Positions 14,436 to 32,255 of a DNA stretch of 64,000 bases are shown here, piece by piece. Both the position numbers and the translations under genes were made by a program. The notes under the pieces are model-generated. The model saw nothing but the letters and a program-made list of their open reading frames with translations. It had not been told where the DNA came from and ran no database searches. Source of the stretch: Candidatus Endomicrobiellum basalitermitum (GTDB lineage: Bacteria > Elusimicrobiota > Endomicrobiia > Endomicrobiales > Endomicrobiaceae); the NCBI GenBank assembly GCA_031282525.1, contig JAITDN010000003.1:248001-312000 (forward strand), given 5' to 3'. The number at the start of each line of letters is the position of its first letter. Position 1 is the stretch's first letter.

Positions 14436-15728
14436 TTATTTAAAAACTCGCTTAAAAATATAATCAACATTTTTAAACTGCGAATTAATATCACAATCTC
14501 TTTTTATTTCCTCTACAGTCAAATTTTTCTTCATATCTTGATTCCTTAGACACGCTTCCTCTATAGTTATTTTATTATCTCTTGCATCAAAGGCCACAGC
14601 CTGAACTATATTATAAGCATTTTCTCTTGAAATCCCTTTATCTACAAGAGAAAGTAACAATGTACCCGAAAAGATAACATTTTTTGTTTTATCTAAATTT
14701 ATTTGCATATTTTCAGGATAAACGTTAAGTCCTGACAATAAAATCTGCATTCTAACAAGCATATAATGTAAAATTATAGAAGCGTCTGGAAACATAATCC
14801 TTTCCGTAGAAGAATGACTTATATCCCGTTCATGCCATAGCGCAATATTTTCCATTGCGGTCAGGGTATATCCTCTAAGAACTCTTGACAACCCACATAT
14901 ATTTTCAGAGATTATTGGATTTCTTTTGTGAGGCATTGCTGATGAACCTTTTTGTCCTTTTGTAAAAGGTTCTTCGACTTCTGATAATTCAGTCCTTTGC
15001 AAATGTCTTATTTCCATTGCAATTCTCTCAAGAACAGCACCTACATGAGCAAGCATAGAAAAATAAATTGAATATCTATCGCGCGGAATAATTTGTGTTG
15101 ATACGGATTCTGCTTTTAAGTCCATTTTTTGACATACATATTCCTCAATTCTCGGATCTAAATTTGCCATAGTACCTACGGCACCAGAAACTTTACCATA
15201 ACTTACGGTTTCAAGAGCAAAATTAAGTCTATCCAAAGACCTCAAAACTTCACAATACCAAGAAGCCACCTTTAATCCAAACGTCATTGGTTCTGCATGA
15301 ACACCATGTGTTCTTCCCATTACGGGAGTCATTTTGTATTTATTAGCCAACTCACGTATTATAACGGCTAACTTTTTAGTTTCATCAATAAGTAAATTTG
15401 TCGCTTGTTTAAGTTGCGCTCCAGTAGCAGTATCTAAAACATCAGAAGACGTCATACCAAGATGCAAAAACCTACTATCAGGGCCTATAGTTTCAGAAAC
15501 AGCAGTCAAAAAAGATATCACATCGTGTTTGACAGTAAGTTCAATTTCATTAATTCTCTTAATGTTGATCTTAGCTTTTCGTTTTATTGTATCTACAGCC
15601 TCTTGAGGAACTTTGCAAAATTTTGACATAGCTTCAACAGCAAAAATTTCAACTTCAAGCATTTTCTTGAATCTATTCTCATCTGACCAAATTTCAATCA
15701 TTTCAGGCTTACTATAACGCGGTATCAT
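14436..15728 (-). CDS. purB: Adenylosuccinate lyase
   Basis: GMTSSDVLDTATG; KGSSAMPHKRNPIISE signature. Confidence 0.97.
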   Translation of the reverse strand: MIPRYSKPEMIEIWSDENRFKKMLEVEIFAVEAMSKFCKVPQEAVDTIKRKAKINIKRINEIELTVKHDVISFLTAVSETIGPDSRFLHLGMTSSDVLDTATGAQLKQATNLLIDETKKLAVIIRELANKYKMTPVMGRTHGVHAEPMTFGLKVASWYCEVLRSLDRLNFALETVSYGKVSGAVGTMANLDPRIEEYVCQKMDLKAESVSTQIIPRDRYSIYFSMLAHVGAVLERIAMEIRHLQRTELSEVEEPFTKGQKGSSAMPHKRNPIISENICGLSRVLRGYTLTAMENIALWHERDISHSSTERIMFPDASIILHYMLVRMQILLSGLNVYPENMQINLDKTKNVIFSGTLLLSLVDKGISRENAYNIVQAVAFDARDNKITIEEACLRNQDMKKNLTVEEIKRDCDINSQFKNVDYIFKRVFK

Positions 15729-15960
15729 ATCTTTTACCTCTTTTCCAATTCTAACTTCAAATTTTCTGTTTTTATTATATTCAATACTAAAATTTATAGT
15801 CTTATAGGTCCAAATAACACTCTAAAATCGTAACTATATAAAAATAACTTTTAAATTTCACAGTATAGGGTTAAGACTATTCAAAAAACATAATCATTCT
15901 GTTAACGTATTAAGATAATTTGCGTTATCATTTTTCTTCAGTAAAAATTTTCTAAAGCTC

Positions 15961-15991
15961 TAAAAATATTAATTAAGAATTAATATTTTTA
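15961..15991 (-). terminator. Perfect 14-bp inverted repeat with 3-nt loop, candidate intrinsic terminator after purM-purN
   Basis: taaaaatattaatt-aag-aattaatattttta, located between the purN stop and the purB start. Confidence 0.5.
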
Positions 15992-16118
15992 TCGATCTAC
16001 AGTTACATTGTTGACTTTGCATACTAAAACTCACTTCACAAAATTACTATACAAGCAAATATTTCTAAAACTCTCTTCATATTACTATATTCAAAAACCA
16101 TTACAGCAACCTACAAAT

Positions 16119-16724
16119 TTAAAGACTTTTATTTAAATCATCTATCAAAATCTTTATAGCTTCAGGGTATATTTTATGCTCTACAGCTAAAACTTTTCTT
16201 GCTATATCCTGTGGTGTATCGCTATTAAGAACCTTGACTTTTTTCTGTATTATTATCTTCCCTGTATCATAATTTTCATCTACAAGATGTACTGTTGCAC
16301 CAGATACTGTCTCTCCTGATTCTATAATAGCTTCATGGACATGATGACCATACATCCCCTTTCCTCCGAATTTAGGTAAAAGAGCTGGATGTATATTCAA
16401 AATCTTGTTACGATAATTTTCTATTATTTTTTGACCTATAATTTTTAAATAACCAGCAAGACAGACAATATCTACTTTCATATTCTTAAGTTCCGCAAAT
16501 ATAGCACTATTAAAAGATTCTTCACTTCTAAAACTCTTTCTTTCTAAGCAAACAGATTTTATATTCTCTTTTTTTGCTCTTTTAAGTGCGTAAGCACCAG
16601 GATTATTTGAAATTACTAAAACGACTTTTGCCAACATCTTTAAAATTCCATCACTAGTAGAATCTATTATAGATTGTAAATTTGACCCATCACCAGATAC
16701 CAAAACTCCGAGACTTTTTATCAT
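16119..16724 (-). CDS. purN: Phosphoribosylglycinamide formyltransferase
   Basis: LGVLVSGDGSNLQSII...ILNIHPALLPKFGGKGMYGHHVHEA. Confidence 0.97.
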   Translation of the reverse strand: MIKSLGVLVSGDGSNLQSIIDSTSDGILKMLAKVVLVISNNPGAYALKRAKKENIKSVCLERKSFRSEESFNSAIFAELKNMKVDIVCLAGYLKIIGQKIIENYRNKILNIHPALLPKFGGKGMYGHHVHEAIIESGETVSGATVHLVDENYDTGKIIIQKKVKVLNSDTPQDIARKVLAVEHKIYPEAIKILIDDLNKSL

Positions 16725-17698
16725 ACAAGCTCAACGCCTCTTTCGCCTTTTTTAACATAACCTATAACTTTAGCACCTTTAAAAAATTTTTCAATCTTCG
16801 AAGCAGCTTCAGAACATACTATCAAAATCATACCTATTCCCATATTTAGAGTTCTGTAAATATCTGTTTCTGGAACATTACCTTTAGTTTGAATAATTTT
16901 AAAAATTTCAGGGACTTTCCATGATTTTTTTTCAATAACAACCCTAATATCTTTCTTTTGAGGTAAAATTCTACTTATTTTATCGTAAAAACTACCACCG
17001 GTAATATGAGTTATACCAACTATATTTTGTATACTTGAATTGAATTTTTTAATAGCTGAAAGAATTTCCTTGACATAAATTTTTGTAGGTGCAAGAAGCC
17101 GTTTTGAATATTTTTTTAACTCATCATCCGAGAAAATTTTTCTTATAAGAGAATAACCATTTGAATGAGGACCACTTGATGGTAGCCCTATTACAACATT
17201 TCCTGATTTTATTTTACTTCCGTTAATTTCTTTTCCCTTCTCAACTATACCTACTGAAAAACCAGCTAAATCGTACTCTCCATCCTTATAAAATCCTGGC
17301 ATTTCAGCAGTTTCCCCACCAATAAGTTGTGAATCTGACAATTCACATCCTTTAGCTATACCCTCAATGACACGTTCTGCTTGTTCTACATCCAGTTTTC
17401 CGCAGGCAAAGTAATCTAAAAAGAAAAGAGGTCTAGCTCCTACACATACTATATCATTAACATTCATTGCAACCAAATCTATTCCAACAGTATCATGTTT
17501 ATTAAATGTAAATGCAAGTTTTAATTTTGTACCTACACCGTCAGTTGAACTAACAAGATTATATTTTGTCCCTAAGATAGGAAACAATCCTCCAAAACCA
17601 CCAATTTTTGGAAGCTTCTTTTTAAGTCGTTTTACAAGTTCATTCCCTGCATCAATATTAACACCAGCCTCATTGTACATAATAGACATATCAATCAT
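16721..17698 (-). CDS. purM: Phosphoribosylformylglycinamidine cyclo-ligase
   Basis: MYNEAGVNIDAGNELVKRLK...STDGVGTKLKLAF...GGETAEMPGFY. Confidence 0.97.
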   Translation of the reverse strand: MIDMSIMYNEAGVNIDAGNELVKRLKKKLPKIGGFGGLFPILGTKYNLVSSTDGVGTKLKLAFTFNKHDTVGIDLVAMNVNDIVCVGARPLFFLDYFACGKLDVEQAERVIEGIAKGCELSDSQLIGGETAEMPGFYKDGEYDLAGFSVGIVEKGKEINGSKIKSGNVVIGLPSSGPHSNGYSLIRKIFSDDELKKYSKRLLAPTKIYVKEILSAIKKFNSSIQNIVGITHITGGSFYDKISRILPQKKDIRVVIEKKSWKVPEIFKIIQTKGNVPETDIYRTLNMGIGMILIVCSEAASKIEKFFKGAKVIGYVKKGERGVELV

Positions 17699-17925
17699 CT
17701 CCTATCATAATATCATATACAAAATTTGTACTTTAGCTAAAACAACAATGTAGTAATCACTATTTATTTAAATCTAACTTTTTTTGAAACTCAAAAAAAA
17801 TCTATAACTGCAGATTACACGCAAACTTTGAAGTAATAAATAACATAATAACTTTTGTAATTTTAACTCAAAATTTACACTTTACAAGTCAATAAGTATG
17901 AATAAACTTCCCATACACATACATA

Positions 17926-19206
17926 TTATTCTCTGCTGCCAGGCTTTATGACAACACTTCCTGATTTACACATAGGACAGTCATCTTTCTCATAGTTTTT
18001 AACTTCAAGAGTTAAGATAGAAATTTTTGGAACTCCAAAGTCAACTTTTCCAGCACTCCTATCAACAAGAGAAGTAATAGCAACTACTACAGCACCCTTA
18101 GATTTAATAGAATCTATGACTTCTGTACTGGATAATCCTGTTGTTATAACATCCTCAACTACTAGAACTTTCTCATCCTTGCCTACTGAAAAACCTCTTC
18201 TCAAACAGACTTTACCATCAACTCTTTCAGTAAACATTGAGCGAACACCTAAAGCTCTTCCAACCTCATACCCAATAACAATACCACCAATAGCAGGCGA
18301 AATAACAGCATCAACTTTTATATTGTTTTCTCTGATTCTATTGGCAAGCTCTTTTGCTAATCTTGTAGTCTCCCTATGATTTTGTAAAATCAAGGCAGAT
18401 TGAAAATATGTATCTGAATGTAATCCACTTGAAAGTTTAAAATGCCCACTTAAAAGAGCTTTATTTCTTCTGAACAATTCTTTAAGTTCAATAAGCTCTT
18501 CTTCTTCTATCTCTTTTATTTTTTTCTCATCTGAACTTGATCTCTTAAAAAATATATTCTTTACTCCCCAATATCCTAAAACAAGACCTACAATAATGTT
18601 AAGCATCTTTACAGCCCAAATTGGTAAAAATACACCTATAAAATGGCCGATTAAAATTACAAAAGACATAAATACAGGCGTTGCTAACATAAAACCAGCT
18701 GCGAAAACACTTGTTTCTTTAAATTTCATATCACGTTTACTTACTTCAAGTGAAAATATTCCCATGATAAATAAAATAGTAATAGGATTTGCCATATCCA
18801 ATCCCATCAAACCAAAAAATAAAGCTTTACCTTTAATCCTATCAGGATTAATAAAATCGTGTCCTATTTGTCCCGTTGCTAAAAACGTTTTTAAAAATAA
18901 TATTCCAGTTGTTATGAAAAATATTCCAAACGCCATTAAGACAATGCCAATAACAATATCAAAAATCCTCTGATAACGTTGTATCTTTTTCACAAGAGTA
19001 GATATTGAAAAAACAGCTAAGCTAACATATGTTAAATCAACAATTGATAATCCTAAAATACCTATAAGCATTTCGGTAACCGGTATAGACAATGACAAAG
19101 TAAAAACTAACATGTAAATAGGACCAATGCCACCAGCTTGTAACATAAGTCCCAATTTTAATCCGTCAAATAAAAAAACGTTATTCTTATTTTTCATAAT
19201 ATTCAT
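17926..19206 (-). CDS. pyrE: Fusion protein: N-terminal LysE-like membrane domain plus C-terminal orotate phosphoribosyltransferase
   Basis: N-term GLKLGLMLQAGGIGPIYMLVFTLS...DMANPITILFIMGIF (hydrophobic, LysE-like) to a charged linker SSSDEKKIKEIEEEEL; C-term LLSGHFKLSSGLHSDTYFQ...KVLVVEDVITTGLSS (PRPP loop)...DDCPMCKSGSVVIKPGSRE. Confidence 0.88.
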   Translation of the reverse strand: MNIMKNKNNVFLFDGLKLGLMLQAGGIGPIYMLVFTLSLSIPVTEMLIGILGLSIVDLTYVSLAVFSISTLVKKIQRYQRIFDIVIGIVLMAFGIFFITTGILFLKTFLATGQIGHDFINPDRIKGKALFFGLMGLDMANPITILFIMGIFSLEVSKRDMKFKETSVFAAGFMLATPVFMSFVILIGHFIGVFLPIWAVKMLNIIVGLVLGYWGVKNIFFKRSSSDEKKIKEIEEEELIELKELFRRNKALLSGHFKLSSGLHSDTYFQSALILQNHRETTRLAKELANRIRENNIKVDAVISPAIGGIVIGYEVGRALGVRSMFTERVDGKVCLRRGFSVGKDEKVLVVEDVITTGLSSTEVIDSIKSKGAVVVAITSLVDRSAGKVDFGVPKISILTLEVKNYEKDDCPMCKSGSVVIKPGSRE

Positions 19207-19238
19207 TTTGTTTTACCATTATTATCTTCTTAACTATC

Positions 19239-19874
19239 CTATATTTTATTATAAATATTTTTTAAAGTCTCAATGGGATTGATAGTATTCAATATAGGTC
19301 TACCAACAACTATAAAATCCGCACCTTCCTTAATTGCAACATCCGGAGTTGCCACTCTTTTTTGATCATCATAAATACTTTCTAACCTAATTCCAGGGGT
19401 CACAACGTCAAACTCTTTACCACACTCTTTTTTTATGATAGCTATTTCAAGAGGCGATGATATTACGCCATCAACTCCGCAAGCTTTTGCAAGTTTTGCT
19501 CTTCTTATAACTTCCTCTTTAGTCGCTACCTGACTTGTCAAAACTGTCACTGCCCATATTTTTGGTCTACTTTTTATAGACGTAGCAGCCATAAGCATAT
19601 CTTCCCCACCAATTGAATGAACAGTTAAGCTAAAAACTCCTAATTCTTTAGCAGATTCAACTGAAAGTTTAACAGTAGTAGGTATATCGTGAAACTTTAA
19701 GTCTAAAAATATCTCTTTTCCGTTATCTTTTATAATTCTCATTATTTTTTCGCCATATCGCAAAAACAATATAGGACCAACTTTATAAATATCGATATAA
19801 GGAACAGTCTTTTTTACAAGTTCTTCAACTCTACTAAAATCATAAACATCAAGAGCAAGTATTATTTTTTTCAT
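19239..19874 (-). CDS. pyrF: Orotidine 5'-phosphate decarboxylase
   Basis: ILALDVYDFSRVEELV...FLDLKFHDIPTTV. Confidence 0.96.
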   Translation of the reverse strand: MKKIILALDVYDFSRVEELVKKTVPYIDIYKVGPILFLRYGEKIMRIIKDNGKEIFLDLKFHDIPTTVKLSVESAKELGVFSLTVHSIGGEDMLMAATSIKSRPKIWAVTVLTSQVATKEEVIRRAKLAKACGVDGVISSPLEIAIIKKECGKEFDVVTPGIRLESIYDDQKRVATPDVAIKEGADFIVVGRPILNTINPIETLKNIYNKI

Positions 19875-19935
19875 TTCTTCCTTTTTAACATTTATTTGTT
19901 AAATGACAAAATAAGTTTTATGTTCAAAGAGTTTA

Positions 19936-20850
19936 TCATAAATTTTTACTGACAATACCAATTATGTCTTTTAGTGAGTTTATATTTTTTCTTTCCAATA
20001 TATTCTTAATTCCATAAACAATTTTCATCAAATTTTTAGGAGAGATTAAACTTGAACTTCCAACACTAACAACTGTCGCTCCAGCTAGAATAAATTCAAC
20101 AGCATCTTCACCTGTTACTATTCCGCCACACCCAATAATTGGCACTCTTATACTCTGATAAGCGTCGTACACGCAACGCACTGATATGGGCTTTATACAA
20201 GAACCCGAAACACCTCCTTTAAACGTTGAAAGTTTTGGCTTAAACATTTCAACATCTATAGCCATCGCCGGATAAGTATTTGCTAGCGTCACTCCATCGG
20301 CTCCCGAATTTTGTGCCGTCAATGCAATTTCAACAATATCAGTTACTAGCGGAGAAAGCTTTGCAATAACTGGCACTTTTGACACATTTTTTACTCCACT
20401 CACTATTTCACTAACCAAACACAAATCGTGACAAATTATCTTTTTTTTCAAATTGGGACAAGATAAATTAAGCTCTATAGCCGACACGCCGTCCTGTCTG
20501 CTTAATATCTCTGCAAGTTCAATATATTCACTTGTCTTAGCCCCAGCAATACTTACAATTATAGGCACACCAATCTTATTTAATCTTTCAAGTGGTTCTT
20601 CAATAAAAGCTTTGACTCCAATATTTTGTAAGCCTATTGTATTCAATATCCCCGACTCAACTTCCGCAATTCTAGGTTGTGAATTACCACCACGTGGCTC
20701 CAAAGTAATTGTTTTTGTAACAATACCACCGAGCTCACTCAACGGAATTAAATCCGCAAGTTCGTAACCGTAACCAAAAGTTCCAGATGCTGTAAGGACA
20801 GGATTTTTCAGTTCAATTCCAGCAAAATTTATATTTAGATTAGTCTCCAT
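19936..20850 (-). CDS. pyrD: Dihydroorotate dehydrogenase (class 1B catalytic subunit)
   Basis: NPVLTASGTFGYGYE...AIELNLSCPNLKK...VPIIGCGGIVTGEDAVEFILAGA. Confidence 0.97.
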   Translation of the reverse strand: METNLNINFAGIELKNPVLTASGTFGYGYELADLIPLSELGGIVTKTITLEPRGGNSQPRIAEVESGILNTIGLQNIGVKAFIEEPLERLNKIGVPIIVSIAGAKTSEYIELAEILSRQDGVSAIELNLSCPNLKKKIICHDLCLVSEIVSGVKNVSKVPVIAKLSPLVTDIVEIALTAQNSGADGVTLANTYPAMAIDVEMFKPKLSTFKGGVSGSCIKPISVRCVYDAYQSIRVPIIGCGGIVTGEDAVEFILAGATVVSVGSSSLISPKNLMKIVYGIKNILERKNINSLKDIIGIVSKNL

Positions 20851-21399
20851 CTATTTCACTCGTTTCATCCTATAAATACATCAAACCATGTACTTGTTAT
20901 ATATACCTTTTCTACTTTAATCTGAAAAACAAGTTAGGAGGTTGTATGCTACTTTTTCAAAATCTCAATTTGTAACTCCTTTTAATTATCCAATCACTAT
21001 TTAGTCCCTCAATTAGCATATCCTAATAAGGCTTATACAATTCACTTAACACAGAATCTCTTCCTAATTTTTTATATAAATATAAGAAAATGAGCTAAAA
21101 ACAAAAGCAGATCATCCAAACAATACTTGCACTAAATCACTTTTCTCAGCTAAAGTCTTTAATTAACACTTCAAATAACCCTAGCGTAATCTGGCAAGAA
21201 TAAAAAGTTTTTTATATACATTTTTTCACTAATTACAGCATCATAAATACTAAAATATAAACCATACAAACAACTCACTATTTATTATTTGTCTTGTTTC
21301 TTTCCTCATATCTATTGCCTATTGGCGAATTCCAACATAAAACCACAGCTTGACTTTTAAGGTACTTAACCTTCAATAATTTCATAACTTTTTATATTT

Positions 21400-21627
21400 T
21401 TAAATTACGAACACATTGTTTAAACTTTCACTATGTTTACAATTTTTATCTTCCACAAAAATTCTATTTGAATCACACTCTTTAACAATAGATCTTACTA
21501 TATCATTATGAAACACAAAATTATTACTTCTCTTATATTTCTCAAATATCTTCTCTATCATTTGTCTCTTTTTATTTTTAATCGCCACATTAGAGCTCGA
21601 CATCTTCAATTTTAAAAACAGGGCCAT
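21400..21627 (-). CDS. Hypothetical 75-aa ORF, possible fragment of a decayed gene
   Basis: Open frame starting inside the 3' end of pyrK; no family recognised; followed by about 550 nt with broken frames. Confidence 0.3.
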   Translation of the reverse strand: MALFLKLKMSSSNVAIKNKKRQMIEKIFEKYKRSNNFVFHNDIVRSIVKECDSNRIFVEDKNCKHSESLNNVFVI

Positions 21628-22387
21628 CCTTACAATTCATTTTATTTTGCCCATTTATTTTTACGACACAGCCTTGGCAGTTCCCTAACCCACACGCCAT
21701 TTTCTCTTCAAGAGAAACGAAACCACACACCCCCCTTTCTTTGGCAATTTGTAAAACTTTTTTAAGCATTGGAATAGGCCCACATGCAAAAAGGGTATCG
21801 CTAGTTTTTAATTGTTCCGGCAATATATCCGTAATATAACCCTTATATCCTTTTGATCCGTCTTCAGTAGATAAAACAGTTTTCCATCCTAACTTCCGAA
21901 AATTGTCCAAATGCAATAAATCAGATTCTGATCTTGCTCCATAATACAATGTACCTTTTTTTTTTAGTCTTGAGGCAAGGGAATAAACTGATGCAATACC
22001 TGTGCCCCCTGCTACAATAATATTATTACCAAAATCGCCATGTGTATTATTATTATCCACGGTAGGACTAGCTAACGATCCTAAATCATAACCTTTACCA
22101 AGTGGACCTAAAAGTTGAAGTATTCCAGATTTAATATTTGACAAAATTCTTGTGCCTTTACCAACAACTTTATACAAAAAACTCACACTTTTTTCTTCAT
22201 TATTAACATCATAAATCCCAAAAGGACGCCGCAAAAAGACACCTGGAATACTAATCATAAAAAATTGCCCTGGCAAACAATATTTATAAGTATTCCCAAT
22301 TTTAACTTTTAATTCAAAATAGTGAGACCCAATTTTTTTGTTGTAAATTATTTCATAATTCTCATCAAATCTTTTACACATACACAA
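21590..22387 (-). CDS. pyrK: Dihydroorotate dehydrogenase electron transfer subunit
   Basis: GQFFMISIPGVFLRRPFGIYD; LEEKMACGLGNCQGCVVKI (2Fe-2S ligands). Confidence 0.95.
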   Translation of the reverse strand: MCMCKRFDENYEIIYNKKIGSHYFELKVKIGNTYKYCLPGQFFMISIPGVFLRRPFGIYDVNNEEKSVSFLYKVVGKGTRILSNIKSGILQLLGPLGKGYDLGSLASPTVDNNNTHGDFGNNIIVAGGTGIASVYSLASRLKKKGTLYYGARSESDLLHLDNFRKLGWKTVLSTEDGSKGYKGYITDILPEQLKTSDTLFACGPIPMLKKVLQIAKERGVCGFVSLEEKMACGLGNCQGCVVKINGQNKMNCKDGPVFKIEDVEL

Positions 22388-22439
22388 TAGGAATCAATAT
22401 AACAATCTAATTTATACTTTTTGTCAAAACTTGTTATAT

Positions 22440-23711
22440 TTATAAACTCCAAACTATATTTCCTCCTACAATTGTCATCACCACTCCACCTTTAAACTGC
22501 CTTCCTATAAAAGGTGAATTTTTACTTTTAGAAACTATCCTACTCTTTTCAAACTCATAAGAATATTCTGTGTCAATTATCGTAATGTCAGCGATACTCC
22601 CCTCTCTAAGAGTACCTCTACTCTCAAGATTAAAAATCTTTGCGGGATTAGAGGTCATTTTTGATATAGCTTCATAAAAACTTAAAACACTGGTATCAAC
22701 AAGTTCATTTAAAACAAGACTCAATAATGTCTCAAAACCTATAATCCCAAAAGGAGCTAAGTCAAATTCTTTATTTTTTTCTTCTTGAGTATGCGGAGCA
22801 TGATCTGTCGCTATACAATCTATTGTACCATCTGCGAGACCTTTTTTTATTGCGTCAACATCTTCTTTTTCTCTTAATGGAGGATTTATTTTAGTATTCG
22901 CATCATAAACTTTTACGTCATCATCAGTTAAAGTAAAATAATGAGGGCAAGTTTCAGCAGTAACTTTTACATCTCTTTTCTTTGCTTGCCTTATCAAATC
23001 AACTGAACCTGCAGTAGAAACATGAGCAATATGCAGATAAGCACCAGTGAGCTCCGCAAGCATTATATCACGACTTATCATAACTTCTTCAGCCTGTTTC
23101 GGGATTCCTCTCAAGCCTAAAATCGAAGAATTTTCACCTTCATTCATAACACCATTTTTACTTAACTCTTTATCTTCACTATGAGAAATAACCGGAAGCT
23201 CAAACATTTTAGAATATTCTAAAATACACCGCATAATTCGCGAATTTGATACAGGAAGACCATCATCGCTTATTGCAATAATTCCCGCTTTTTTAAGAAG
23301 TCCTATTTCAGAAAGCTCAACACCCTGCGATCCCTTAGTTGCACATCCTACAGGGAAAACATTTACGAACCCTTCTTTACGCGCTTTATGAAATATAAAC
23401 TCAACTACTGAAGCACTATCTATAACAGGGTCGGTATTTGGCATACAAAAAACAGTCGTTATCCCGCCTTTTGCAGCTGAATGTGTCCCAGTGTAGATAG
23501 TTTCTTTCATTTCCTGTCCCGGTTCTCTTAAATGAGCATGAACATCAATAAGGCCAGGAACAGCAATTTTCCCTTCCCCACTAATAACTCTATCGGCATT
23601 ATTTGAAAATTTTGGTACAATTCTCCCGTTCTCGATAAAAATGTCACCAATTAAATCTTTATTTTGCGAAGAAGGATCAACTATTCTAATATTTTTAATT
23701 TGAAGGCGCAT
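22440..23711 (-). CDS. pyrC: Dihydroorotase
   Basis: GLIDVHAHLREPGQE...CMPNTDPV...CIATDHAPHT. Confidence 0.97.
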   Translation of the reverse strand: MRLQIKNIRIVDPSSQNKDLIGDIFIENGRIVPKFSNNADRVISGEGKIAVPGLIDVHAHLREPGQEMKETIYTGTHSAAKGGITTVFCMPNTDPVIDSASVVEFIFHKARKEGFVNVFPVGCATKGSQGVELSEIGLLKKAGIIAISDDGLPVSNSRIMRCILEYSKMFELPVISHSEDKELSKNGVMNEGENSSILGLRGIPKQAEEVMISRDIMLAELTGAYLHIAHVSTAGSVDLIRQAKKRDVKVTAETCPHYFTLTDDDVKVYDANTKINPPLREKEDVDAIKKGLADGTIDCIATDHAPHTQEEKNKEFDLAPFGIIGFETLLSLVLNELVDTSVLSFYEAISKMTSNPAKIFNLESRGTLREGSIADITIIDTEYSYEFEKSRIVSKSKNSPFIGRQFKGGVVMTIVGGNIVWSL

Positions 23712-24636
23712 TTTTCCTCTTTACAGACTGCTCCAAAAGACATAAAACCGCCATCCTAACCGCTATCCCATTGGCAATCTGCTCATTAATAGCAGCATTG
23801 GGAGCATCAGCAACTTCAGAAGTTATTTCAATACCTCTATTCATTGGTCCAGGATGCATAATTAAAACATCAGATTTCGCCATACCCAATCTCTCTTTCG
23901 TTAACTGATAAAGACTAATATACTCACGAAGAGACGGAAATAAGCTCTCCTGTTGACGTTCAAACTGTATTCGTAAAATATTCAAAACATCGGCTTTTCT
24001 AACAGCTTCATCTAAATTATAGTACACCTTCACGCCTAAATTTTCAATGCTTGCTGGAATTAAAGTCGATGGTCCCGAAACCAAAACCTCCGCACCCATT
24101 TTAGTTAACGCCCATATATTTGATTTTGCAACTCTTGAATGTAAAATATCACCAACAAGCAACACTTTTAATCCTTCAATCCTTTTCTTCCTTTCATATA
24201 TAGTGTATAGATCAAGAAGTCCCTGGGTAGGATGTTCGTGAAAACCATCACCAGCATTTATTATAGATATGTCTAGATTTCTTGCAAGTATATCAGGTAC
24301 CCCTGCTAACACATGTCTTATAATTATGTAATCTGCACCCATAGCTTTAAGAGTTTTACCAGTATCTATAAGACTTTCTCCTTTGACAATACTTGAACTG
24401 TTTACAGCAATATTTATCACATCAGCGGAAAGTTTTCTAGCAGCAATTTCAAACGAAGTCCTTGTACGCGTAGAAGGTTCATAAAAAAGTGTTACCACCA
24501 TTTTACCACAAAGTATTAAAGATTTATCACATTTTTTTAAAAGATCTTTAAAGATTTTAACGGAGTCTAAGATTGTTTGCAAATCTTTTTTGTCTAGATG
24601 TTTAAGACCAAGTAAATCTTTGAATTTTAGAAACAT
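23695..24636 (-). CDS. pyrB: Aspartate carbamoyltransferase catalytic subunit
   Basis: FYEPSTRTRTSFEIAARKL; DGFHEHPTQGLLDLYTI. Confidence 0.97.
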   Translation of the reverse strand: MFLKFKDLLGLKHLDKKDLQTILDSVKIFKDLLKKCDKSLILCGKMVVTLFYEPSTRTRTSFEIAARKLSADVINIAVNSSSIVKGESLIDTGKTLKAMGADYIIIRHVLAGVPDILARNLDISIINAGDGFHEHPTQGLLDLYTIYERKKRIEGLKVLLVGDILHSRVAKSNIWALTKMGAEVLVSGPSTLIPASIENLGVKVYYNLDEAVRKADVLNILRIQFERQQESLFPSLREYISLYQLTKERLGMAKSDVLIMHPGPMNRGIEITSEVADAPNAAINEQIANGIAVRMAVLCLLEQSVKRKNAPSN

Positions 24637-24808
24637 TTATTATTGTCCAATACACATACTTACATGTGATACAACTTTATTATCTTTTTTATGTTACTGA
24701 CTTTTTCTGAATTTATTTAACTGTATTACATAAATGAATCATAAAATAGCAAAATCATCTCCACCTAAATATATTTTATAACACAAAAAAACTCACTTAC
24801 AAACAAAT

Positions 24809-25348
24809 TCATTTTCTTAATTCCCCAAGATACTTTTCTATTCCATTTTTCTGAAGCTCAAAATCATCTTTGATAACATCTTCTGACATTTTATTTTTGT
24901 ATACCTTAAGCTTCTCATTTAAACCTTTATTCGTAACAGCTATTATTTGAACAGCTAAAATTGCAGCATTTACAGCACCAGCTTTTCCTACAGCAACCGT
25001 TGCAACAGGCACACCTTTAGGCATTTGAACTATTGAAAATAAGGCATCTAAACTCAAAAAACTTTTACTGTCAACTGGAACTCCTATTACTGGAAGAACA
25101 GTTTCAGAAGCCACAACACCTGGAAGCGCAGCGGCCATCCCAGCTACAGCTATGAAAACTTTTACATTTGAACTTTCTGCACTTCTAATACATTGTTTTA
25201 AATGTTGATTGGTCCTGTGAGCTGAAGCAATGTTCAAAGTATAAGACAACCCAAATTTCTCTAAAACTTCAATAGATTCTCTTATCAACGGTAAATCCGA
25301 TTTAGAACCTACAATAATAGCTACATCTACATCACAAACACTACTCAT
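24809..25348 (-). CDS. purE: 5-(carboxyamino)imidazole ribonucleotide mutase
   Basis: IIVGSKSDLPL...SAHRT...AGMAAALPGVVAS. Confidence 0.96.
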   Translation of the reverse strand: MSSVCDVDVAIIVGSKSDLPLIRESIEVLEKFGLSYTLNIASAHRTNQHLKQCIRSAESSNVKVFIAVAGMAAALPGVVASETVLPVIGVPVDSKSFLSLDALFSIVQMPKGVPVATVAVGKAGAVNAAILAVQIIAVTNKGLNEKLKVYKNKMSEDVIKDDFELQKNGIEKYLGELRK

Positions 25349-26624
25349 TTAGCGCCCTCCAGGCTATATCTTTCCGATAGTGCATATTTTTAAAATATAT
25401 ACTTCTAACATTTGAATAAACCTTATCTATCGCAGTTTTTATATTATCCGCTCTTGAAGTAATACTTAAAATTCTCCCGCCACAAGTAAAGAATTTTCCG
25501 GATTCAAATTTCGTTCCAGCATGAAATATCAGCGTATCCTTGTCATTAATATTTTCTAACCCTCTAATTTCAAATCCTACTTCAAACTTTCCTGGATATC
25601 CACCTGAAGCAAGCACTACCGAAACTGAAAACTCTTTTTTCCAATCAATCTTTAAAGCTCCAAGCTCCTTATTTAAAATCGCATCACAAATGCCTATTAA
25701 GTCTGTGTCAAGCAAAGGTAAAACCGCCTGCGTTTCAGGATCTCCAAAGCGACAGTTAAACTCCAAGACATAAGGAGAGGACTCTTCAATAATCAAACCT
25801 ACATATAAAACCCCTTTATAATTAATCTTCTCAGCTTTTATACCGTTAATAATCTTACGAATTATAACTTCAGCTTTTTTATTTAAATCATTCATCATTG
25901 CCAAGGGCGCAGGAGCATAAGCACCCATACCACCAGTATTAGGTCCTTGATCATTGTCATTTATTCTTTTATGATCTTGAGAAGCTGGCATTATTGAATA
26001 AGATATACCATCAGTAAATATTAAATACGATAATTCAGGTCCCTTTATGTATTCTTCTATAATTATATTTGTTCCCGCGGAACCCAAAATTTTATAATCC
26101 ATAATCTGATTAACAGTATTTTTTGCTTCCTCTCTACTACTGCAAATATAAACCCCTTTCCCAGCAGCAAGTCCATCAGCTTTAACCACAATTTTTTGAT
26201 TTTTCTCACATTTATCCAAAAACTTTAAAGCATCATTAATATCCGAAAAACAGTTATACCTAGCTGTAGGTATATCGTATTTTCTCATAAACTCTTTTGA
26301 GTATATCTTACTTGACTCAAGTCTCGCTCCATCCTTTGATGGACCCACTATTTTTAAACCATTAGCTTCAAAATAATCAACTATTCCCAAAGATAATGGA
26401 ATTTCTGGCCCCACAAACGTAAAATCTATTTTATTTTTTTTAGTAAAATCAGCGAGTTTATTAAAATCACTTATCACATTAACTGAAATATTCACATTCG
26501 TTGCAATTTGAGATATACCACCATTACCTGGAGCACAATATAGCTCGTCAATCTTAGAACTTTTTAAAAATTGTTGACATATTGCGTGTTCTCTTCCACC
26601 AGATCCTATAACCAATATTTTCAT
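25341..26624 (-). CDS. purD: Phosphoribosylamine-glycine ligase
   Basis: MKILVIGSGGREHAI...VKADGLAAGKGVYI...EFNCRFGDPETQAVLP. Confidence 0.98.
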   Translation of the reverse strand: MKILVIGSGGREHAICQQFLKSSKIDELYCAPGNGGISQIATNVNISVNVISDFNKLADFTKKNKIDFTFVGPEIPLSLGIVDYFEANGLKIVGPSKDGARLESSKIYSKEFMRKYDIPTARYNCFSDINDALKFLDKCEKNQKIVVKADGLAAGKGVYICSSREEAKNTVNQIMDYKILGSAGTNIIIEEYIKGPELSYLIFTDGISYSIMPASQDHKRINDNDQGPNTGGMGAYAPAPLAMMNDLNKKAEVIIRKIINGIKAEKINYKGVLYVGLIIEESSPYVLEFNCRFGDPETQAVLPLLDTDLIGICDAILNKELGALKIDWKKEFSVSVVLASGGYPGKFEVGFEIRGLENINDKDTLIFHAGTKFESGKFFTCGGRILSITSRADNIKTAIDKVYSNVRSIYFKNMHYRKDIAWRALNE

Positions 26625-26763
26625 CTAATCCCCTAACTATAGCAAGCCTATTGTATAAAAACTTTAATAAAATTTATTTTGTAAAATATGTTTTAGGTCA
26701 TAATAAGGCATCAACTATCACTTATCACTACACTACAACTAAACGAATCCCGTATACTTTCTA

Positions 26764-28794
26764 CTACACTACATTCTTACCTGTGCTCTTAATCAAATAT
26801 TCAGAAACTGCTATGGCAGACAAATAGTGTTTAATTAATTTTTCACTATTGTCCGTTCCATAAGAATACTTTATTTCTCTGTTATTACTCTTATTCCAAA
26901 AATAATATAAATGTGTTCCTTTAAAAAAATCGTACCTCACAACACCTTTTTTATCCATTATTACTCCACAATCAGAAATAATAATATTATCTTTCGCTTT
27001 CTCAGACAAAATATTCATTCCCATGGCCATGTATTTAGAGTTTGAAATAGAAAGATTGTAAAGAGTGGGCATTATATCTAAGTGAGAACCAAAAACTGAT
27101 GTATCAACTTTAATAGGTCTCAATGACTTTGGAATATATAAGTAGAAAGGAACGCTTAAAGAATCTAATGTTTTTTCATCTGAATAAGCTAAAATACCAC
27201 TAAAATTATGGTCTCCCGTAACAGCAATAATAGTGTTGTTTGCATATTTTGAATTCTTTATTTTAGTTATAAACCTGCCAAGCATTTCATTAGAATATTG
27301 ATAAGTGACGAATCTCTTTTCGGCTAAACTTTTCCCTATAATATTTTTCTCCAAATCTTTGGGTATATTAAGGGAAAGTTTCTTATAGTTGCTCGGCATA
27401 GAATATGGAGGATGGTTAGTCGTAGACAAAACACAAATAAACTTTTGATTATTATTTTGACTTAAAATCTTAAACAAATAATCAAAAAGGCATTCGTCGT
27501 AAACACCCCAAACACCACGAGCATAATTCTTGTCCATATTACCCTCGCCAAGGACATTGTCAAAACCTAAATTTGGGATAAAATTACATAGATTTCTCCA
27601 ACCATTATTACCACCATATATAAAAGTAGTTTCATAACCTTTATCGTTATATGGCATCGGACCTGAAAAGATATATTTTTTATATGCATATTTTGATTGC
27701 GCCAAAAACATTGGCAACGGAAGCCTAGTAACATTCGTAATTATACCTTCAAGACTACCTATAGTATTATCATGCGCTGGTAAAAAATTATAAAAAACAA
27801 AATCAGTATCAAAATGTTTTTTTAATTCACCTAAAACATTAAAATTCTCAGAATTATATTTTAATAAATCACTTCCAAAACTTTCCATAATAATAAGAAT
27901 GACATTAGGTTTAATATTTTCTATTGTTTTATTATAGGGGATATTTTTAAGTAAAGAAATCTCAGGATTTTCCTCTGGAATATCATCAATGTCTAAATTC
28001 AAATAATCCGCAAATGCCTCTCTTATATTATTTTTATATCCCGCCTTATTAGCACAATTATAATCGTTATTCTTATTCTTAATCTCAAGAGCCTTCTCTA
28101 AAGTGTAAACACCATTTATAGAGACTTTATTTAAGAATACATTTTTAGATACCTGTAAATCGTCTATTTTTAAAGAAAAATACCCTAAAGAGCCTCTAGC
28201 GATAATAATATTTGTGAAAACCATTGAAACTGTTACTATAAGTTTCAATAAAATTTTTTTACTCTCAAAAAGCTTTTCATATTTAAGGGCTGAGAATACA
28301 TATTTTGAAATAAAAAAAATCATAACATACGACAATATAAGTCCGCCAATTACTAAAAATAAATTATAATTTTGTGACAACGTAGATATTATGGCAGCAG
28401 TATCATCTTCAAACAATCCAAAAACTAAAACATTTAGATGATTTTGAAAATATGAATAGAAAGTAAAGTCAATACCCAAAAAAACAATAAGACTACCCAT
28501 TGATAATGTATAGTAGTATTTGAAAAAAAATACAAATTTCTTAAATAAATTTTCACCACTAACAAAAAGTAAAATGGGTAATAAAAAAACCACTGGAATA
28601 TTCAAATATGCTAAAACTGACAAATCATATCTGATACCCATATAAAAAGCCTTTAGTATATCAAAACCTAAACCATTAAAATCTATACCCTTTCCATAAT
28701 ACTTAAAAAACGCAAATCTAAAAGCTGACATAAATGACACAAAGACAGAATTTAAAAACACTATTCTCAAAAGTAGCGATTTAAAATTTTTCAA
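26764..28794 (-). CDS. Membrane sulfatase, LTA synthase / phosphoglycerol transferase-like (alkaline phosphatase superfamily)
   Basis: N-terminal TM helices, then NVILIIMESFGSDLL, CVLSTTNHPPYSMP, VTGDHNFSG. Confidence 0.88.
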   Translation of the reverse strand: MKNFKSLLLRIVFLNSVFVSFMSAFRFAFFKYYGKGIDFNGLGFDILKAFYMGIRYDLSVLAYLNIPVVFLLPILLFVSGENLFKKFVFFFKYYYTLSMGSLIVFLGIDFTFYSYFQNHLNVLVFGLFEDDTAAIISTLSQNYNLFLVIGGLILSYVMIFFISKYVFSALKYEKLFESKKILLKLIVTVSMVFTNIIIARGSLGYFSLKIDDLQVSKNVFLNKVSINGVYTLEKALEIKNKNNDYNCANKAGYKNNIREAFADYLNLDIDDIPEENPEISLLKNIPYNKTIENIKPNVILIIMESFGSDLLKYNSENFNVLGELKKHFDTDFVFYNFLPAHDNTIGSLEGIITNVTRLPLPMFLAQSKYAYKKYIFSGPMPYNDKGYETTFIYGGNNGWRNLCNFIPNLGFDNVLGEGNMDKNYARGVWGVYDECLFDYLFKILSQNNNQKFICVLSTTNHPPYSMPSNYKKLSLNIPKDLEKNIIGKSLAEKRFVTYQYSNEMLGRFITKIKNSKYANNTIIAVTGDHNFSGILAYSDEKTLDSLSVPFYLYIPKSLRPIKVDTSVFGSHLDIMPTLYNLSISNSKYMAMGMNILSEKAKDNIIISDCGVIMDKKGVVRYDFFKGTHLYYFWNKSNNREIKYSYGTDNSEKLIKHYLSAIAVSEYLIKSTGKNVV

Positions 28795-28928
28795 ACTATT
28801 TACTCTTATAAAAAATTATTTTACAACTGGTAGGAAACAAAAAACTTTAAAATACATAAAAACCACTCTTATCTCAGATAGAATATGTCTCAATAAAAAG
28901 ACTTTTTTCTACCTCATTATTACAAAAC

Positions 28929-29714
28929 CTAGCTTACAAAATTAACAGCATTCTGAAAAATCACTTTTCCCCAACCATATTTACTATTAAACCCTTCTCT
29001 TGCTGGGTGTTGTAATGCAAAAACATATCTTTCAGGGTGAGGCATAAGTCCGAAAATATTCCCCTTTTTATTACATATTCCAGCTATTTGTTCTGTAGAT
29101 CCATTTGGAGCTAAAGGATATTCTGGTTCACTCCCATCTTTTAAAGAATACCTAAAAACAATTTGGTTATTTTTATTTAAGTTGTCTAAAAATTTCTCAT
29201 TCATAGGAATAAATTTTCCTTCTCCATGAGCTACAGGCAAACTTATAATATCAGGTAGATTTTTTGTCCAAATACAACTGGATTCGTTTTTAATTTTCTT
29301 CTCTGTTTTCAGATAAACCCAACGACATTCAAATTTATCAGAATCATTATAAGAAAGTGTAGAGATTTGTTTAAAAAGCTCTGGATCAGGAAGCAATCCT
29401 ATTTTAACTAAAACTTGGAAGCCATTGCATATACCTATAATAGGTCTACCACTCAAAGCATATTTTTTAACTTCATCGCCAAGCTTATTTTTAACTTCAT
29501 TTGCCAATATTTTCCCAGAAGCTATATCATCACCGTAAGAAAACCCGCCGGGGAAAGCTAAAATATCGTACTCAAAAATTTTATCTTTTCTTTCAATAAG
29601 AGTGTTAATATGAACGCGTTCCGCAATAGCACCGCATAATTCAAAAGCGCTTTGTGTTTCATAATCACAATTCGTTCCTGCAGTTCTCAAAATCAATACT
29701 CTAATTTTTTTCAT
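28929..29714 (-). CDS. purQ: Phosphoribosylformylglycinamidine synthase, glutaminase subunit
   Basis: MKKIRVLILRTAGTNCDYET...PGGFSYGDDIASG...GICNGFQVLV...MPHPERY. Confidence 0.96.
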   Translation of the reverse strand: MKKIRVLILRTAGTNCDYETQSAFELCGAIAERVHINTLIERKDKIFEYDILAFPGGFSYGDDIASGKILANEVKNKLGDEVKKYALSGRPIIGICNGFQVLVKIGLLPDPELFKQISTLSYNDSDKFECRWVYLKTEKKIKNESSCIWTKNLPDIISLPVAHGEGKFIPMNEKFLDNLNKNNQIVFRYSLKDGSEPEYPLAPNGSTEQIAGICNKKGNIFGLMPHPERYVFALQHPAREGFNSKYGWGKVIFQNAVNFVS

Positions 29715-29771
29715 ATGTTTTCCTCTCAAAATACATAACGATCATGAAAACTATTTACTCTCGTATGAAGA

Positions 29772-32255
29772 TTACCAATTAATAGTATTACGCCAAGAAT
29801 TTAAAAGAATTTCAGAATTTTGTCGTATTTTTACATTATTTTTCTTACTTTCAAAAATCACTTCTTTATCATCACTTACATAACCAACTTCAGAAAAAAT
29901 CGATCCATCTAAAATTTTCTTAAATTTTTCCTCATTATCAGGTTCTACTTCAACGATAAATCTCCCATTTGATTCAGAAAAGAGTATTTCAGCCGGTGTC
30001 ATCTCTCTACCACTTCTACATCTTTCTTCCAAATAAGAATAGATCTTTATAGCATCTATATCTACTTTCACACCCTTATTCGCAGAAAAAGCCATTTCAC
30101 TCACCGCAACTACAATTCCACCTTCAGAACAATCATGGCAAGCCTCTATCAAATTTTCACTCATCGCACTATAAATCTTCTCCATTATATCTTTAGATTC
30201 TCTATGATAAACACCCGGTACTATGCCACCTTCAATATTTCTTATTTTTGAAAACACCGAACCACCAAGCTCATTTCTTGTAATACCTAAAACAAATATT
30301 TTATTCCCATCCTTCTTTAAAGACATCGTAACAGTATTTTCTACATTTTCAATAATGCCCATAGCGGATATCAAAAGTGTCGAAGGTATTGAATATTTTT
30401 TCCCATTTATAGAATATTCATTATGTAAGCTATCTTTCCCTGAAATAAAAGGAACCTCAAAAGCTTTTGAGATGTCATAACAAGCCTCCATCGCCTGCAC
30501 CAAACTTCCTAAAATTTCCGGATGGTTAGGATTCCCCCAACAAAAATTATCTAATATTGAAATCCTCCTAATATCAGCGCCTACTGCAACCGCATTTCTC
30601 AAAGATTCTTCTATTGCAGACGCAGCCATATTATAGGGATTTATTTTCCCATACTGAGGATTTAGTCCATTAGATAAAACAATACCTTTTTTAGTACCTT
30701 TAACAACAGTATAAGGGAAAATAACAGCAGCATCACCAGGACCTGAAATCTCAATGTTATTTCCTTGTAATGGCTTTATAACAGTTTGTCCTTGTACCTC
30801 ATGGTCATATTGTCTGACAATCCATTCTTTAGAACAAATATTTAAATCAGCAAGTAATGAATTTAGGGAATTAGAAACTTCGAAAGAACTCATCTCAACA
30901 GGTTTTTGTACTTTTTCTTCCTTCATTTTATAAAACGCAGACTTAATAGGTTTAGGAACTCCATTATGTAAAAATTCCATATCCATACTCGCTACAATAT
31001 CATTATCATACATAAGAGTAAGTTTTTTATCATCTGTGAATTCACCTATACATACAGCCTCAACATTTTCTTTTTCAAATATTTCAATAATTTTCTCTAT
31101 ATTTCTAGGCGGAACAGCAAAAACCATTCTTTCCTGTGCTTCAGAAATCCATATTTCCCACGGGCAAAGACCATTATATTTTAACGGTACTTTATCCAAA
31201 TAAACAACAGCACCAGTTTTCTCCCCAAGCTCGCCTACGGCACTAGATAAACCACCAGCTCCACAATCAGTAACAGCCCTATAAAGATTTAAGTCCCTTG
31301 CTTTAATCATTGTATCTAATACTTTTTTCTCAATTATAGGGTTACCTATTTGAACAGCACTAACATCAGATTCCTTATCAAGTTGTATAGAAGAAAATGT
31401 CGCCCCGTGAATACCATCTCTACCTGTTTTTCCACCTACAACCAAAACCAAATCACCTGATTCAATTTTTTTGTCTATTTTATTTTTAGGGATTATACCC
31501 ATAGTTCCACAGTAAACAAGTGGATTTGATATATATCCATCATCAAAATAAACCGTACCATTTACAGTAGGTATTCCAATTCTATTTCCGTAATCTCTAA
31601 CACCAGAGACAACACCCTTAATTATTCTTTTAGGATGATGAACTCCTTCTGGAACTTTTGAGATTTCTATATCTGGATCTCCAAAACAAAACACATCAGT
31701 ACTAGCTAAAGGTTTTGCCCCAAGACCAACTCCTAAAATATCTCTTATAACACCACCTACCCCTGTTGCAGAACCACCATAAGGTTCAAGTGCTGATGGG
31801 TGATTATGAGTTTCAACTTTAAAAGCAACTCCATTTTCAGAATCAAATTCAATAATTCCAGCATTATCTTTAAAAATAGATAAACACCATGGCTTATCTA
31901 ATTCGACCGAAGCTTTAAAAATAGTTTCTCCCAAGAGATTATTATACGTTCTTTTCGTTTTTTCGCCGTCTTTTTCCTCAGTGTATTCTACCGCTCCCGT
32001 AAGTGTTTTATGCTTACAATGTTCACTCCATGTCTGAGCTATAGTTTCAATTTCAACATCTGTAGGCTCTCTTTTAAGTTTTTTAAAATAATTTTGAATA
32101 ACTCTCATTTCTTCAAGAGACATCGAAAGAACATTCTTCCTACTCAGTTCAAATAACTCTTCATCAGATAAATTCAAAATTTTAATAGTTTCACACCTAG
32201 CCGTACATTTCATTTTTTTAGAAACACACCAATTTTGCTTCAAGCAATCTTCCAA
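29772..32255 (-). CDS. purL: Phosphoribosylformylglycinamidine synthase, large subunit
   Basis: QTWSEHCKHKTL...VAFKVETHNHPSALEPYGGSATGVGGVIRDILG. Confidence 0.98.
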   Translation of the reverse strand: MEDCLKQNWCVSKKMKCTARCETIKILNLSDEELFELSRKNVLSMSLEEMRVIQNYFKKLKREPTDVEIETIAQTWSEHCKHKTLTGAVEYTEEKDGEKTKRTYNNLLGETIFKASVELDKPWCLSIFKDNAGIIEFDSENGVAFKVETHNHPSALEPYGGSATGVGGVIRDILGVGLGAKPLASTDVFCFGDPDIEISKVPEGVHHPKRIIKGVVSGVRDYGNRIGIPTVNGTVYFDDGYISNPLVYCGTMGIIPKNKIDKKIESGDLVLVVGGKTGRDGIHGATFSSIQLDKESDVSAVQIGNPIIEKKVLDTMIKARDLNLYRAVTDCGAGGLSSAVGELGEKTGAVVYLDKVPLKYNGLCPWEIWISEAQERMVFAVPPRNIEKIIEIFEKENVEAVCIGEFTDDKKLTLMYDNDIVASMDMEFLHNGVPKPIKSAFYKMKEEKVQKPVEMSSFEVSNSLNSLLADLNICSKEWIVRQYDHEVQGQTVIKPLQGNNIEISGPGDAAVIFPYTVVKGTKKGIVLSNGLNPQYGKINPYNMAASAIEESLRNAVAVGADIRRISILDNFCWGNPNHPEILGSLVQAMEACYDISKAFEVPFISGKDSLHNEYSINGKKYSIPSTLLISAMGIIENVENTVTMSLKKDGNKIFVLGITRNELGGSVFSKIRNIEGGIVPGVYHRESKDIMEKIYSAMSENLIEACHDCSEGGIVVAVSEMAFSANKGVKVDIDAIKIYSYLEERCRSGREMTPAEILFSESNGRFIVEVEPDNEEKFKKILDGSIFSEVGYVSDDKEVIFESKKNNVKIRQNSEILLNSWRNTINW

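Follow-up and report, generated by a model that had tools for sequence, protein, structure and literature searches.

The fusion gene of the window, by which we mean the whole 64,000-nt stretch of DNA analyzed here from Candidatus Endomicrobiellum basalitermitum, probably encodes one bifunctional, membrane-anchored protein in which an exporter-type LysE domain is combined with the cell's sole orotate phosphoribosyltransferase (OPRT, PyrE), formed by the joining of operon neighbors. We infer from the sequence that the full-length polypeptide is produced and that both of its halves are active. The genome around the gene (719 kb, four contigs) contains no other pyrE match and no other LysE-family match, although at 84% completeness a second pyrE is conceivable. 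Among named species, Candidatus Endomicrobiellum mastotermitis, calonymphae and glyptotermitis are closest to it.

A complete LysE domain and a complete OPRT share one reading frame

A preliminary description of this DNA had claimed that a LysE-like membrane domain and PyrE are fused in a single open reading frame. We found this frame exactly as claimed (Table 1), together with all of the sequence motifs that had been cited, including NPITILF and VVEDVITTG, and we regard the LysE-OPRT fusion as genuine, its two domains being complete and apparently functional. Both exceed the cut-offs of their families (PF01810 and TIGR01367), and both have dN/dS values well below 1.

Table 1. Features of the fusion gene and of its operon neighbors, in positions of the window.
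Feature	Residues	Positions	Strand	Evidence or remark
lysE-pyrE fusion gene	426 aa	17926..19206	(-)	ATG to TAA
LysE/RhtB-type membrane domain	1-221	18544..19206	(-)	PF01810, 41.9 bits
15-residue insertion LFLKTFLATGQIGHD	103-117	18856..18900	(-)	alignment; between predicted TM3 and TM4
NP motif	140-141	18784..18789	(-)	kept in nearly all orthologues (alignment)
Charged linker	222-240	18487..18543	(-)	alignment
Orotate phosphoribosyltransferase domain	241-426 + stop	17926..18486	(-)	TIGR01367; PDB 4paw
PRPP-binding loop VVEDVITTG	349-357	18136..18162	(-)	sequence
pyrF		19239..19874	(-)	separate gene directly upstream of fusion
pyrD		19936..20850	(-)	
pyrK-type electron-transfer subunit		21590..22387	(-)	
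pyrC and pyrB		22440..24636	(-)	
purM, purN, purB		14436..17698	(-)	downstream of pyrE in most relatives as well

The OPRT half scored 212.2 bits against TIGR01367 (cut-off 150.25), with residues 241-425 aligned to positions 2-187 of the 187-position model. PyrE is complete and its PRPP loop intact, as had been proposed. Its best solved relative, PDB 4paw, aligned over nearly the whole length (E = 4.5e-45). Among the 56 conserved PyrE columns, defined as those kept by 95% or more of the unfused relatives, 51 are intact throughout the fused clade; the five that depart comprise three substitutions in the interior and, in one species, two positions at the C-terminus. The genome encodes carB and everything from pyrB to pyrF, and a search of it for uracil phosphoribosyltransferase returned none above cut-off. 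With carB present and no such enzyme above cut-off, UMP appears to be made by way of OPRT, and judging by gene content the cell very probably cannot do without the OPRT half. Another genome of the collection contains a second, divergent pyrE (G032:C22:9509-10081, 41% identity), which is either contamination or a gained paralogue.

The LysE half, which is hydrophobic and about 220 residues long, exceeded the PF01810 gathering cut-off of 25.6 bits with a match split into two stretches; its unfused orthologues give a single full-length match of up to 54 bits. The six-helix LysE-like module of the preliminary description thus belongs to the LysE family, while its helix number is suggested solely by hydropathy and family membership. 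The hydropathy profile is consistent with six helices arranged 3+3, and positively charged loops, KKIQRYQR and SKRDMKFKE among them, lie after predicted helices 2 and 4 and at the C-terminus. The half therefore probably comprises six helices in an N-in/C-in arrangement with both termini cytosolic, a topology that would place OPRT on the cytosolic side, alongside its substrates. AlphaFold2 models of the fusion and of the LysE half, built from an input of only four close sequences, had a mean pLDDT of 32-36, and a PDB sequence search with the LysE half gave no significant match. In the alignment, the insertion LFLKTFLATGQIGHD is restricted to four of the five members of the fused clade, G005 being the member without it; on this pattern, the 15 residues were gained in the stretch linking predicted helices 3 and 4 after the G005 split.

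The fusion is conserved across five species

Four further species carry an in-frame LysE-PyrE fusion with 72-88% identity end to end, and three of the MAGs with the fusion are named and were each assembled independently. Because the fusion is conserved across species, chance can be excluded. In all, five Endomicrobiellum species (G000, G014, G062, G027 and G005) share it, and they form one clade with an SH-aLRT of 100.

By simple pairwise counting among the four closest species (G000, G014, G062 and G027; dS 0.44-0.72), in which pairs share branches and are non-independent, the LysE half had a dN/dS of 0.11-0.15 and a dN 0.55-0.94 times that of the PyrE half, for which dN/dS was 0.11-0.20. When G005 was compared with the other four, the rate of the LysE half was about double that of PyrE. 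These rates indicate that both halves are under purifying selection in the four-species clade and that the LysE half is conserved in the manner of a working protein.

Genomes of endosymbionts erode, and other members of the genus have a broken lysE, as with the internal stop in G018, or have deleted it. Such erosion, along with the roughly doubled rate of the LysE half relative to G005, would fit a LysE half reduced to a dead anchor in the membrane or to a passenger, with OPRT alone mattering. We nevertheless think this quite unlikely, given the low dN/dS of the LysE half within the four-species clade, the conservation of its GP and NP motifs and loops, and the retention of the clade-specific 15-residue insertion itself.

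The junction lacks a common internal start

The charged linker contains neither a stop nor an in-frame ATG, GTG or TTG, and its length differences between species amount to whole codons. In all four of the closest species the fusion frame is stop-free throughout, the original pyrE start codon (ATG) is lost, and the region preceding the PyrE start is free of in-frame ATG, GTG and TTG for at least about 38 codons. An in-frame TTG occurs about five codons inside PyrE in G000, G014 and G062, hence not in all members of the four-species clade, which has no junction start codon common to all. When the linker sequence was tested alone for constraint, the result was not significant, and an unconstrained linker would be what is expected of a flexible tether.

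Free OPRT could be released through the internal TTG or by proteolysis. It seems decidedly improbable, though, that two separate proteins are still made, whether by internal initiation or by proteolytic cleavage, and that the shared frame is of no consequence. The TTG just inside PyrE would suit such a scheme, as would the singleton fusions G065 and G015, in which an internal ATG persists near the old pyrE start, preceded in G065 by a GGGAGG-like site; the four-species clade, however, has neither an ATG nor a shared start codon at the junction. The G065 and G015 fusions may be young or leaky.

At the G065 junction (L038, about locus 2095-2170) there are G7 and A7 homopolymer runs that are absent or shorter in its unfused sister G063 (A6 versus A7), and slippage or a sequencing artefact is possible at this homopolymer-rich site. 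Such length changes are typical of errors too, and they are what could be said for the reading that the junction is an assembly or sequencing error, which we find barely credible: the five main-clade genomes agree despite divergent sequence, with indels in frame and no stops. For the window's own clade, these five concordant, divergent genomes refute error. Separate genes in all relatives combined with a frame error at the junction, the pattern that the preliminary description had set against a real fusion, is not what we found. A second suspected PyrE fusion, a long open frame in G056 and G059, was dismissed for G059, where a stop lies ahead of PyrE.

Gain, loss and fusion of lysE within the genus

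A search with the LysE half, covering 84 genomes of the order in one genome collection, retrieved homologues from Endomicrobiellum only, in 28 of the 42 genomes of the genus; beyond this collection, fusions in other genera are conceivable. Within the family, PF01810 matches came from Endomicrobiellum, always adjoining pyrE; a single other genus had them too, in two genomes, and its protein was not retrieved by the LysE-half search. A single open frame covers lysE and pyrE in seven of the 42 genomes, and in 21 the two genes are separate, with spacing that ranges from an overlap of about 50 nt to a gap of about 11 nt and with frames that nearly always differ; G018, with its interrupted lysE, is among the latter. 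Short lysE relics, with the middle deleted and both ends retained, were present in three genomes. In nine more, lysE was unrecognizable in the first search (N-terminal relics remain in two of these, clear in G033 and weak in G011), and the remaining two are incomplete and gave no pyrE match. The lysE-less lineages of the genus retain a complete pyr operon. This lysE appears to be a transporter that the endosymbiont genus gained and that has gone unreported; a search for its donor in a plasmid collection was uninformative, the Cetobacterium LysE transporters that it yielded being just 33-35% identical.

In a quick-search tree of concatenated PyrD, PyrF, PyrE, PyrK, PurM and PurN (51 rows), Endomicrobiellum was monophyletic (SH-aLRT 100). 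Three changes to the fused state fell on this tree, in the ancestor of the five-species clade, in G065 and in G015; G063, the sister of G065, and G010, a close relative of G015, are both unfused. Change counts on the tree by themselves do not separate gain from loss, and it is because the outgroups are without lysE and relics occur in lysE-less members that the simplest reading is a single gain near the base of the endosymbiont genus followed by several losses. As for the chance loss of a stop codon between neighboring genes in a decaying genome, which had been offered as an alternative to a functional fusion, it stands as an origin, the boundary having been lost three times on the tree, and falls as a sign of decay in the window's clade, since the frame there has outlived speciation with both halves constrained.

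Operon setting

The gene order around the fusion is pyrB-pyrC-pyrK-pyrD-pyrF-(lysE-pyrE)-purM-purN-purB. A lysE-less version of this order occurs in other genera of the family and, whole or in part, in other families of the order. On the minus strand of the window, a long pur/pyr cluster spans 14436-32255 (purL, purQ, purD, purE, pyrB-C-K-D-F-E and purM-N-B) and includes a gene for a sulfatase-like membrane protein at 26764-28794. The 740-bp gap between pyrK and pyrD (20850-21590) holds no long ORF. In the relative G024, an ORF that has a DPDY-type DNA methyltransferase motif (L143:3355-3816) lies in the same interval (L143:2856-4220), and the gap in the window shows frame-broken and partial nucleotide similarity to it; the gap looks like a relic of a G024-type methyltransferase ORF.

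Transport and pyrimidine synthesis

By analogy with its family, the LysE half probably transports an amino acid or a similar small solute; members of the LysE superfamily are known exporters of amino acids, lipids and metal ions (PMC4608589). Export of lysine, arginine or threonine was considered and rejected for want of any gene association: lysA and argH are kept in genomes both with and without lysE, and thrC, sought in the five fused species, was found in none.

The preliminary description had further proposed that the fusion tethers OPRT to the membrane and could couple UMP synthesis to the transport of orotate or a nucleobase. Tethering is predicted from a LysE domain joined in frame to a complete OPRT. 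Coupling was not supported, in view of the superfamily's cargo and of the fact that lysE is a genus-specific insertion, lost in many lineages with a whole pyr operon; these losses speak against a requirement for transport in UMP synthesis. In its functional form, coupling would mean that the transporter moves a solute of the pyrimidine pathway (orotate, a base or a precursor) which the tethered OPRT captures or regulates, vectorially. The invariable adjacency of the genus-specific lysE to pyrE, mostly with overlap, the three fusions, and a LysE half that evolves no faster than PyrE within the fused clade all agree with this reading. We nonetheless consider it unlikely, because the complete pyr operon survives loss of lysE, free-living relatives have the same operon without it, gene overlap by itself makes repeated fusion easy, and the superfamily review does not contain the words orotate or phosphoribosyl (PMC4608589). 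A transporter-enzyme machine, in which pyrimidine synthesis is physically coupled to solute exchange with the protist host and which was elaborated after fusion by the loop between helices 3 and 4, strikes us as rather unlikely as well. Since lysE has been lost where all pyr genes stay, we favor two working domains joined by loss of a boundary over a dedicated coupled machine.

Under this favored explanation, lysE would have been acquired between pyrF and pyrE near the base of the endosymbiont genus, mostly overlapping pyrE; it would then have been brought into the pyrE frame, with loss of the stop and start between them. The OPRT, of about 186 residues, would be held by the short and flexible charged linker on the cytosol side, where PRPP and orotate occur. 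The most likely reason for the fusion's persistence is that neither half is harmed by it and the separate pyrE start is gone, with membrane placement a consequence rather than a purpose.

A central housekeeping enzyme would thereby have been moved to the membrane by transporter fusion during symbiotic genome reduction, and the intermediates are still visible: separate genes, overlapping genes, fusion with an internal start, fusion without one, and deletion of lysE. Having been gained with a genus of flagellate endosymbionts, lysE is also a candidate route for the exchange of metabolites with the host.

Comparison with known systems

In the literature searched, with most subscription journals outside its coverage, we found no description of a LysE-OPRT protein or of a membrane OPRT fusion. 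The words fusion and fused are absent from the LysE superfamily review (PMC4608589), and the main text of the study that describes Endomicrobiellum as endosymbionts of termite-gut flagellates makes no mention of LysE, pyrimidine, orotate or fusion (PMC11257099).

Like the OPRTs of TIGR01367 (pyrE_Therm) and PDB 4paw, the enzyme half matches over its full length and preserves both the FTERVD...LRRGF stretch and the PRPP loop; unlike these separate and soluble enzymes, it has a membrane domain N-terminal to it. The membrane half resembles LysE/RhtB translocators (PF01810) in exceeding the family cut-off and in its length, hydrophobicity and 3+3-compatible profile, and differs from them in being fused to an enzyme and in its 15 extra residues between TM3 and TM4. 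As in UMP synthase and bacterial PyrF-PyrE fusions (e.g., NF004034), OPRT forms one half of a bifunctional pyrimidine protein, but the partner here is a transporter domain, with no OMP decarboxylase domain and with pyrF as a separate gene. In its history, finally, lysE is like the other transporters acquired by Endomicrobiellum (OPA, NTT, SdaC, GltS and AroP; PMC11257099), having been gained with the genus, with later loss or change in sublineages.
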